From contig NZ_JYIV01000029.1 of the NCBI RefSeq assembly GCF_000956405.1, positions 124,001 to 188,000 on the forward strand: a stretch of 64,000 nucleotides of DNA. The letters are read 5' to 3'. A program made the translations under genes and the position numbers. Below the pieces are notes generated by a model. It saw only the letters and a program-made list of their open reading frames with translations, did not search any database and was not told the DNA's origin. Shown here one piece after another: positions 9,744-11,699 of the stretch. Position 1 is the stretch's first letter, and every line of letters starts with the position of its first letter. Origin of the DNA: Microbacterium oxydans (GTDB lineage: Bacteria; Actinomycetota; Actinomycetes; Actinomycetales; Microbacteriaceae).

Positions 9744-10337
9744 TCAGCCGAGGCCCCTGGCCGCCAGCGCGTCTCCGACATCATCCGCGTGCCTGAGCGC
9801 GAGCACGAGCAGCGGCACCACCGTGCGGATGCCGAGTCGCGCGTCGCGGGCCAGCTCCGCCTCCCGCACGCGCGCGGCGAATCCTGCGATCACCGGGACG
9901 GTCGTGAGAGTGAGGGAGATCGTCAGTGCCACCTCCTCCGGATCGACGCCGAGCCGTCGCACCGGTCGCAGCAGGTTCTGCAGGACATCGAGCAGTGCCG
10001 ACATCCGGGTGGTCAGAGTGAGCAGACCTGCCAGGAGGAGCACAGCGACCACTCGCCCGGTGCTGATCCACGCGGCCTGGGGCGAGACGAAGATCAGGAG
10101 GGCCGCGGCGAGCACGATCACGATCCAACGCAGGCGCCACATCTCGGCGAGGAGCACACGGAACCCAAGCCCGCTCACGACGTAGAGGCCCGCGACCACG
10201 AGGAGCGCGACGGCGATGCTCACCGCGTCGTGCGGATACAGCGACAGGACGAGGGCCCCGACGGCCAGTAGCCCGAGCTTGAGCGCGGCCGGCGCCCGGT
10301 GCACGATCCCCGTTCCGGGGTGATACAGCGCGATCAT
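9744..10337 (-). CDS. bioN: energy-coupling factor transporter transmembrane protein (BioN type)
   Basis: A 197-residue EcfT-type transmembrane coupling subunit of an ECF importer. It has four or five hydrophobic helices in the first two thirds, then the cytoplasmic coupling helices, with RDARLG and AARGLG standing in for the two Ala-Arg-Gly motifs that contact the ATPase. I chose ATG 10337 because it overlaps the bioM stop (ATGA); a GTG 6 nt upstream is the alternative. The BioQ-type operators upstream of bioM make biotin the likely substrate. No substrate-binding S component (BioY) is present in this window. Confidence 0.8.
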   Translation of the reverse strand: MIALYHPGTGIVHRAPAALKLGLLAVGALVLSLYPHDAVSIAVALLVVAGLYVVSGLGFRVLLAEMWRLRWIVIVLAAALLIFVSPQAAWISTGRVVAVLLLAGLLTLTTRMSALLDVLQNLLRPVRRLGVDPEEVALTISLTLTTVPVIAGFAARVREAELARDARLGIRTVVPLLVLALRHADDVGDALAARGLG

Positions 10338-11032
10338 GCACACGCCTGCTGATACGCAGCGATCACCTGCGACGGCGGACCCGAGGCCACGATCCGTCCG
10401 TCGTCGAAGAGCAGAGCTGTGTCGCAGCGCGAAGCCAGTTCGAGGTCGTGTGTCACGAGCACGACCTGTGCCGGAAGCCCGAGCAGCAGTTCGGCGATGC
10501 GACGGGAGTTGCGCAGATCCAACAGGGTCGTCGGCTCATCGGCGACGACGATGCGTGGATCGGAGATCAGCACCGACGCCAGAGCGAGCATCTGCTTCTG
10601 CCCACCGGACAGCGCGGATGCCGCGACGTCGGCGTGCTCCGCCAACCCGTGCACCTCGAGCGCTTCCTGCACGCGTTCGGCCACTTCGGTCTTCGAGAGT
10701 CCGCGCAGCGACAACGCAAGGTCTTCGGCGGGCGTCGGCATGAGTATCTGCGCGTCCGGATTGGTGAACACGAACCCCACGAGCCTGCGCACCGCGGCGC
10801 GCTCGCGAACGGTGTCGAGCCCGTGGACCGACACCGTGCCGTCTCGAGGAACGATGAGGCCGTTCAGCAGTCGTGCGAATGTCGACTTGCCCGAGCCGTT
10901 GGCCCCGATCACGGCGGTCGTCCCCGCGGTCAGGTCGACGCTGACCTCGCGCAGCACGGTGCGACCATCGAGTTCCACCGACACCCGGTCGAGCGAGATC
11001 GGAGCGAAGCCGACCGGCACGGAACTCGTCAC
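10334..11032 (-). CDS. bioM: energy-coupling factor ABC ATPase (BioM type)
   Basis: A 232-residue ABC ATPase of the ECF A-component group. It has Walker A GANGSGKST (about residue 44), a FTNPDAQI Q-loop, signature ALSGGQKQM, Walker B IVVADEPTTLLD and the switch His in VTHDLE. It would power vitamin (probably biotin) uptake together with BioN. The GTG start has an AGAGGAAA ribosome-binding sequence. Its promoter region is covered by three palindromic operators shared with the divergent regulator gene. The C-terminus overlaps bioN. Confidence 0.87.
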   Translation of the reverse strand: MTSSVPVGFAPISLDRVSVELDGRTVLREVSVDLTAGTTAVIGANGSGKSTFARLLNGLIVPRDGTVSVHGLDTVRERAAVRRLVGFVFTNPDAQILMPTPAEDLALSLRGLSKTEVAERVQEALEVHGLAEHADVAASALSGGQKQMLALASVLISDPRIVVADEPTTLLDLRNSRRIAELLLGLPAQVVLVTHDLELASRCDTALLFDDGRIVASGPPSQVIAAYQQACA

Positions 11033-11055
11033 GACTGTTTCCTCTCGGCATCATC

Positions 11056-11098
11056 TGAACAGTGCTCACCTGAACAGTGTTCACCTGAACGTCGTTCA
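11056..11098. promoter_or_regulatory. three tandem BioQ-type operators in the bioM/bioQ divergent promoter
   Basis: Three 13-bp palindromes of form TGAAC-N3-GTTCA lie at 11056-11068 (TGAACAGTGCTCA, one mismatch), 11071-11083 (TGAACAGTGTTCA, perfect arms) and 11086-11098 (TGAACGTCGTTCA, perfect arms). Centres are exactly 15 bp apart. The form resembles the TGAAC-N3-GTTAC operator described for corynebacterial BioQ. The array ends 1 bp before the bioQ -10 (TATAAT, 11100-11105) and also covers the expected -35 of bioMN, so one bound array could repress both directions. Confidence 0.85.
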
Positions 11099-11099
11099 C

Positions 11100-11105
11100 T
11101 ATAAT
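11100..11105 (+). promoter_or_regulatory. consensus -10 (TATAAT) of bioQ, predicting a leaderless transcript
   Basis: A perfect TATAAT followed by exactly 6 nt and then the ATG at 11112. Transcription would start at the ATG itself, so the bioQ mRNA should lack a 5' leader. The -35 region falls within the operator array. Confidence 0.7.
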
Positions 11106-11111
11106 CGGAGC

Positions 11112-11699
11112 ATGAGTCCCGAGCCCAATCAGGCCGCCAGGCACGACCGCGACAGCGTGGCACGCAAGGCACTCGCCCTGCTCGATGAGGTCGGGCTCGC
11201 CGACCTCTCGATGCGACGTATCGCCGCGGGACTCGACGTGCAGCCGAGCGCGCTCTACTGGCACTTCGCGAACAAGCAGGAGCTGCTCGCCGAGCTCGCC
11301 GACCGGATCACCGCGTCGATCCCTCGCGGCGGAACCGACATCATCGATACGGCGCGCGGCATCCGCGATGCCCTGTTCGCCTATCGCGACGGGGCAGAAC
11401 TCGTCCTCAGCACCTACGCGCTGCAGCTCGGCTCCTCCACCGCGCAGAACGCTCTGGTCGACGCGCTGCGCGCGCAGGGTGCATCGGACGCCGACGATCG
11501 GGGCGCCGCGATCCTGCACTTCGTCCTGGGACACGCAACCCTCGTGCAGCAGCGCATGCACGCCGACAGCCACGGTGCCCTCCCGGCGGACGCGGACGTC
11601 GATGTCACCGCCGGACTCGACCGCGTCTTCGACCTCGGGGTCGGCGCTCTCGCAGGAGCGCTCAGGTCGCCGGAGACTCCGCCGCGTGCCCGAGCCTGA
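11112..11699 (+). CDS. bioQ: TetR-family regulator, BioQ-like biotin repressor
   Basis: A 195-residue TetR-type repressor. The N-terminal helix-turn-helix (about residues 30-52) reads LSMRRIAAGLDVQPSALYWHF, a form typical of BioQ proteins; the C-terminal part is an all-helical ligand or dimer domain. The ATG follows a TATAAT by 6 nt, supporting this start over the longer open frame, which is antisense to bioM. The operators between it and bioM have the BioQ shape, so it probably represses itself and bioMN. Actinobacterial BioQ is generally thought to respond to biotin status indirectly. Its 3' end overlaps the convergent MFS gene by 38 bp. The family call is firm; BioQ identity rests on operator and neighbours. 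Confidence 0.82.
   Translation: MSPEPNQAARHDRDSVARKALALLDEVGLADLSMRRIAAGLDVQPSALYWHFANKQELLAELADRITASIPRGGTDIIDTARGIRDALFAYRDGAELVLSTYALQLGSSTAQNALVDALRAQGASDADDRGAAILHFVLGHATLVQQRMHADSHGALPADADVDVTAGLDRVFDLGVGALAGALRSPETPPRARA

Follow-up and report, generated by a model that had tools for sequence, protein, structure and literature searches.

The biotin uptake genes bioM and bioN of Microbacterium oxydans were located in a stretch of 64,000 nucleotides (the window, G000:C29:124001-188000, from a genome of 3.69 Mb), where they face a putative bioQ gene. The locus is very probably the autoregulated bioQ-bioMN half of a two-locus BioQ regulon, in a Microbacterium without bioB. Both the regulator and the importer are of known kinds; the interesting part is the presence of a biotin-regulated enzyme pair in biotin auxotrophs.

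The BioQ regulon of Corynebacterium glutamicum, with its bioYMN operon, was reportedly described by Brune et al. in 2012. The predicted site TGAAC-N3-GTTCA, the TetR-type BioQ, the ECF biotin importer and the biotin auxotrophy of that species (PMC3398298) would be common to it and M. oxydans. In C. glutamicum, however, bioY, bioM and bioN share a single operon, with bioQ away from the bio genes (PMC3398298), whereas here bioQ faces bioMN, bioY is elsewhere, the boxes are in tandem and no BioB was found. The M. smegmatis BioQ controls the synthesis genes bioFD and bioB, as given in PMC9302846, while the boxes of M. oxydans stand at uptake genes and at a ligase-ketosynthase pair.

Regulator, importer genes and operator array

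The features of the locus in the window were as follows.

9744..10343, minus strand: bioN, ECF T component (CbiQ family), 199 aa, Pfam CbiQ
10334..11032, minus strand: bioM, ECF-type ABC ATPase, 232 aa, GTG start, best NCBIfam match TIGR04520
11056..11068, no strand: predicted BioQ-type operator 1, TGAACAGTGCTCA, one mismatch
11071..11083, no strand: predicted BioQ-type operator 2, TGAACAGTGTTCA, exact
11086..11098, no strand: predicted BioQ-type operator 3, TGAACGTCGTTCA, exact
11098..11103, minus strand: putative bioM -10, TATAGT, overlapping the bioQ -10, read from the sequence
11100..11105, plus strand: predicted bioQ -10 hexamer TATAAT, same layout in relatives
11112..11699, plus strand: bioQ, TetR-family repressor, 195 aa, predicted leaderless, Pfam TetR_N

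BioQ contained a TetR-family HTH domain (PF00440, TetR_N, 46.7 bits, cut-off 24). Its nearest solved structures were 5xs9, 5yej and 5yek (E about 1e-26), deposited as TetR family regulators and presumably BioQ of Mycobacterium smegmatis; 24 of the 31 residues of the HTH segment were identical to 5xs9/5yej. Boxes of the form TGAAC-N3-GTTCA (motif as in PMC3398298) were present at bio genes and at bioQ itself. A convergent MFS transporter gene (minus strand, stop 11662) overlaps the 3' end of bioQ by 38 bases, 11662-11699.

The best NCBIfam match of bioM, TIGR04520, reached 177 bits, under the cut-off of 315, and a Shine-Dalgarno-like GAGGAAAC was seen upstream of it at 11037-11044 on the minus strand. 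bioN, which overlaps bioM by 10 bases, matched Pfam CbiQ with 36.4 bits (cut-off 25) and gave zero matches in the NCBIfam search, so the biotin role assigned to both genes rests on their neighbourhood. With BioY, described below, A, T and S components (ABC ATPase, CbiQ-family protein and BioY) were all encoded in the genome.

Three TGAAC-N3-GTTCA palindromes at exact 15-bp steps had been noted between bioM and bioQ; the spacing was right, but one of the boxes carries a mismatch and just the other two match the motif fully. The TATAAT and the start codon of bioQ do abut the array when the positions are rechecked, with the hexamer at 11100-11105, one base past operator 3, and the ATG at 11112, exactly 6 nt past the hexamer. 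Matches with at most one mismatch numbered 4 in the window against 0.68 expected, and 4 were reached in 1 of 100 shuffles. Over the 3.69 Mb of the genome, exact TGAAC-N3-GTTCA occurred 4 times and the reversed control pattern 0 times, and these four boxes formed two arrays, each with a 15-bp step. When one mismatch was allowed, 48 sites were found in the whole genome against 7 for the control, an excess that may reflect base composition.

From the position of the putative bioM -10, the array would cover the point where bioM transcription starts and the bases downstream of it, and the boxes, filling the shared intergenic region, are predicted to be operators common to bioQ and bioMN. One BioQ-type TetR dimer would sit on each 13-bp box, and the 15-bp stack would occupy the stretch immediately before the bioQ -10 together with the bioM start region on the opposite strand. 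A single array could in this way switch off both directions, bioQ and bioM. Beside both arrays of the genome (window 11098-11105 and L005:8462-8469), each strand carries a -10-like hexamer, the two overlapping and almost symmetric, which suggests bidirectional promoters that one array could shut.

Predicted leaderless start of bioQ

The original prediction of a leaderless bioQ gained support from comparison with relatives. Among 101 distinct bioQ loci beside exact boxes, pooled from several fetches with near-identical strains included and therefore not independent, 85 had a TAnnnT hexamer ending 6 nt (68 loci) or 7 nt (17 loci) before an in-frame ATG or GTG of bioQ, and the layout was missing in 16. 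In 69 of these 85 loci a single base lay between the hexamer and the last box, for which as many as two mismatches were accepted. All ten bioQ-bioMN loci inspected from the split group described below showed the same order: box, one base, TATA(A/G)T, six bases, ATG. A second -10 on the opposite strand, overlapping the first, can be drawn, and the array would then cover the start region of bioM or bioY. Having no room for a leader or Shine-Dalgarno, bioQ would be translated from or beside the first transcribed base. A comparable case is C. glutamicum bioY, whose transcript begins at the first base of the start codon (PMC3398298), though the leaderless gene is bioY there and is predicted to be bioQ here.

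Second locus with bioY and separation of the genes

It had also been noted that bioY was missing near bioMN, so that it must be elsewhere or BioMN must serve several S components. The absence was confirmed, since bioMN lies on contig C29 and bioY was found on contig C17:

C17:23896-24318, minus strand: bioY, the only BioY gene found (PF02632, 119 bits)

bioY is thus encoded elsewhere, and the idea of several S components was not needed. In the genome search for sites and bioY, the second exact array was seen to precede bioY; this gene has a perfect operator pair with a 15-bp step, placed directly before its start (L005:8433-8460), so the motif is present at a biotin gene outside the window. 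On the opposite side of the pair, an AMP-forming acyl ligase is encoded together with a FabF-like ketosynthase in an operon-like arrangement. The regulon seen in this genome consisted of two divergent promoter regions with five boxes, three at bioQ-bioMN and two at bioY-ligase-ketosynthase. The BioMNY genes are split, and their union in one operon is common, not required.

Biotin shortage, through some signal, would lift repression, and BioM and BioN would be made along with BioY and assemble as an ordinary BioMNY importer. We infer binding, repression, transcription starts and importer assembly from sequence comparison. PMC4554459 states that there was no direct evidence of biotin metabolites in BioR or BioQ binding.

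In the same genus, the genomes G106 and G164 had bioQ facing a joint bioY-bioM-bioN. Ten genomes were split and carried boxes at each of the two loci: the window's genome, G200, G203, G237, G227, G382, G256, G345, G405 and G448. A bioQ tree built from 37 chosen rows put nine of the ten split rows, the window included, in one group (support 95/94) and the tenth, G203, in the surrounding group of 13 (100/99) with three joint rows. The simplest reading of this tree is a single separation event, the split arrangement being derived within one Microbacterium clade. A separated bioY with its own operator array means that the vitamin regulon stays coherent after the transporter operon breaks.

Two other explanations of the locus bear on this result. 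That the TetR protein is a drug-type repressor merely flanking bioMN, and not BioQ, is most improbable: its top NCBIfam match was the tetracycline repressor model PRK13756 (81.9 bits, cut-off 265) and an MFS gene lies downstream of it, but a like protein adjoins the same boxes and bioY in 28 of the 30 listed family loci, and the other array of the genome sits at bioY. BioMN could also be a shared energising module for several S components including BioY, with the separation reflecting this sharing, as bioMN has no S component alongside in the split clade. We consider this very unlikely, because bioMN sits behind biotin-type boxes, the sister arrangement is bioYMN and bioY retains the same kind of boxes; control of bioY by the same operators would explain its absence near bioMN without any sharing. 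The two-locus BioQ regulon was preferred over both.

Ligase and ketosynthase opposite bioY

The ligase of the window's genome scored 153 bits against the YhfT profile, the best in the genome (next 108), whereas the ligases of G311 and G386 scored 564 and 571 bits. That it is simply YhfT was ruled out by this difference from true members, and by its profile score the enzyme is a distinct subfamily, not the YhfT-like family found in bioY-bioMN operons. The ketosynthase had the triad of FabF-type enzymes (KAS II) at C166, H307 and H344 of the 415-residue query; the Cys-His-His triad was whole in 25 of 28 aligned copies, with the positions not fully covered in the other 3.

Close copies of the ligase were present in 12 of 366 genus genomes. 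All 12 had an exact BioQ box upstream followed by a TAnnnT hexamer, all 12 had the ketosynthase, and the ligase faced bioY in 9 of them. In G271 one separate box belongs to the ligase pair, and bioQ faces a joint bioYMN. Six split genomes without the ligase at the bioY locus had CAnnnT in place of the hexamer.

With a more broadly defined ligase (E 1e-60), 29 genus genomes were positive and an exact BioQ box was in the flank in only 9 of these, which ruled out that ligase and ketosynthase are always biotin-linked. The wider loci of 13 of the 20 box-less genomes were searched and 0 of 13 had an exact box. The basic chemistry of the pair may accordingly not concern biotin. Near the ligase-ketosynthase genes, 12 of these 13 loci (L098-L107, L109-L111) contained an acyl-CoA-dehydrogenase/monooxygenase-like gene of one cluster. 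A mutual exclusion of this ligase and the YhfS-like thiolase was also considered and is weak, as the lists of 29 and 30 genomes share 0 genomes where chance alone predicts an overlap of about 3 of 295.

Predicted ACG start of the ligase gene

At the expected start of the ligase gene, ACG was found in 12 of the 12 BioQ-linked genomes (L005:8540, which is G000:C17:24540; L070-L076; L254-L257). GGAG or AGAG lay shortly upstream of it in 11 of 12 by script, and in the twelfth, L257, by eye. Five of the 12 genes had no in-frame ATG, GTG or TTG across the following 46 codons. In the other ligase copies the same aligned codon was ATG, GTG or TTG in 20 of 21, and the exceptional copy, L090, had ATG one codon later. 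Differences per site among nine ligase copies were 0.179, 0.136 and 0.351 at codon positions 1, 2 and 3, so the reading frame is under selection. In the remaining 7 of 12 a start codon occurs 5-6 codons downstream of the ACG (ATG in L069-L072 and L075, GTG in L076 and L257), and this is a possible alternative start in those genes; in the window's genome it is the ATG five codons on. Translation from ACG is therefore predicted, and its occurrence in 12 of 12 BioQ-linked genomes offers a checkable case of non-standard translation initiation.

Ligase-thiolase genes linked to the importer in relatives

In relatives, bioY was followed by an AMP ligase gene and a thiolase gene in 15 of the 20 larger loci inspected, and bioM and bioN came next in 13; most of the 20 were picked for a visible ligase, so 15 of 20 is no frequency. 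Gene positions were taken from tblastn, since a simple GC-based gene caller gave some wrong frames. For L060 (ligase and thiolase) and L059 (thiolase) the best NCBIfam matches were PRK07638 and PRK06690, below the cut-offs, and a shorter reading of the L053 ligase had PRK07824 as best and PRK07638 as second, also below the cut-offs. PRK07638 and PRK06690 are presumably the families of B. subtilis YhfT and YhfS.

A thiolase-alignment scan of genome contigs covered 84,980 species, and the best 80 of 505 loci (L118-L197) were used, with thiolases selected by similarity and two conserved peptides. All 80 were actinobacteria by name, and their flanks contained the ligase in 79, bioY in 73, bioN in 71, bioM in 68 and bioQ in 40. 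Compared with human ACAT2, the Asn of the NEAF motif was replaced by Val in 80 of 80, and the C-terminal Cys by Ala (43) or Ser (31) in all 74 readable sequences, while the nucleophilic Cys was kept in 79 of 79 readable ones. The thiolase of this set lacks both acetyl-CoA-activating residues. In G311 the ligase-thiolase genes stand behind their own operator pair, away from the locus where its bioQ faces bioYMN, so the pair can belong to the regulon by itself. A YhfS-like thiolase was present in 30 of 295 genus genomes, while a search of the window's genome at E 1e-80 gave none.

A comparable pair is yhfS-yhfT, a putative acyl ligase and thiolase-type gene repressed by biotin through BirA. PMC6391492, PMC7235819 and PMC11089781 describe control of these genes by S. 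aureus BirA, with putative functions; in PMC11089781 the control is extended to B. subtilis and the genes are associated with bioY. Unlike yhfS-yhfT, the actinobacterial pair often lies between bioY and bioMN and bioQ adjoins it in 40 of the best 80 of 505 loci. The ligase of the window's genome belongs to a distinct subfamily and is paired with a FabF-like ketosynthase. No description of a BioQ operon with ligase and thiolase was recognised in a literature search of listings and abstract openings, with the main BioQ papers outside it. By gene order and boxes, a ligase and a condensing enzyme appear to be tied to biotin-type control in many actinobacteria, and yhfT/yhfS-type genes become testable through this link.

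Biotin auxotrophy and possible role of the enzyme pair

Nothing in the window's genome reached the BioB cut-off of 225 bits (highest score 39.8 bits); as the genome is 94.5% complete, the absence of bioB is likely, not certain. BioB was also not found in close relatives at 99-100% completeness, nor in the other 11 genomes with a BioQ-linked ligase and 6 further split genomes. The host is thus apparently unable to make biotin. In the first tested set overall, BioB was present in 2 of 26 (G198, G070). Of 34 YhfS-bearing genomes, all of this family, only two had it, G397 and G232; these tests gave 0 of 7 and 2 of 27 positives and included 20 of the 30 YhfS genomes of the genus. In most organisms tested, then, the enzymes cannot be part of the usual de novo route to biotin. 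A role of the ligase pair in pimelate or biotin synthesis was rejected for the window's genome, where no BioB was found, and the general lack of bioB in the tested family argues against pimelate synthesis there.

Two uses of the pair can be proposed. Ligase and condensing enzyme might salvage imported biotin with a shortened side chain, for example bisnorbiotin, so that auxotrophs regain biotin without BioB; this is speculative and on the whole unlikely. The ligase would activate the free acid, and the second enzyme, a ketosynthase here and a residue-altered thiolase in relatives, would add two carbons by malonyl-dependent condensation. Loss of the Asn and the Cys in the thiolases, with the nucleophilic Cys and His kept, fits a KAS-like reaction, and a true KAS in the corresponding place in the window's genome fits the same reading of the thiolases. 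As a further step, the conserved ACG start would keep the ligase of this clade scarce.

A doubtful but quite possible alternative is that ligase and ketosynthase, or altered thiolase, use no biotin compounds as substrates and supply lipids when the biotin-dependent acetyl-CoA carboxylase fails, scavenged fatty acids being activated and elongated by the pair. Lipid supply is in line with the resemblance of the enzymes to acyl-CoA ligases and FabF, and with the 20 of 29 ligase-positive genus genomes in which a related pair has no BioQ box; the tight linkage of the genes to the importer in relatives speaks against it. So does the fact that the malonyl units needed by the ketosynthase themselves come by way of a biotin-dependent enzyme.

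Spacing of the operators

A pair of boxes at a 15-bp step, with at most one mismatch, was found in 46 of 199 family genomes and in 152 of 295 genus genomes, and such a pair was seen in 25 of 85 sampled genera. In the 30 listed tandem loci of the family, which include the bioY locus of the window's genome, a 3-kb stretch contained a bioY-like gene in 29 and a bioQ-like gene in 28. Exact-box pairs with a gap of 0-30 bp, counted by hand, numbered 45 in 40 family genomes; their steps were 15 bp (35 pairs), 14 bp (6), 24 bp (1), 33 bp (2) and 34 bp (1), and 0 of 45 were at 25-26 bp. The 15-bp spacing is thus highly conserved.

Successive sites had been described as facing opposite sides of the helix, which was taken to suggest cooperative occupancy. 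The geometry is roughly so, but not exactly, since at 10.5 bp per turn a step of 15 bp makes 1.43 turns, about 154 degrees. In the 14-bp arrays the angle is about 120 degrees, so touching of adjacent dimers may count for more than the helix face. It may be, though this is less likely than not, that the tandem boxes are non-cooperative and the array merely raises the local number of sites, with the fixed step due to close packing of dimers or to an old duplication of a 15-bp unit. The 14-bp step, not opposite, in 6 of 45 pairs and the lack of pairs at 25-26 bp agree with this, as do the linkers, which were CC or GG in 38 of 49 recounted exact pairs, as for a duplicated unit. However, the N3 centres differed in 47 of the 49 pairs, so the arrays are not fresh copies, and despite these differing centres the 15-bp pair was found across those 25 sampled genera. 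The locus is clean material for testing the effect of a fixed 15-bp tandem array.

Three exact pairs had boxes 33-34 bp apart (G020:C12:199592-199638, G161:C9:20341-20386 and G133:C1:302202-302247), possibly a different operator geometry with promoter sequence in between.
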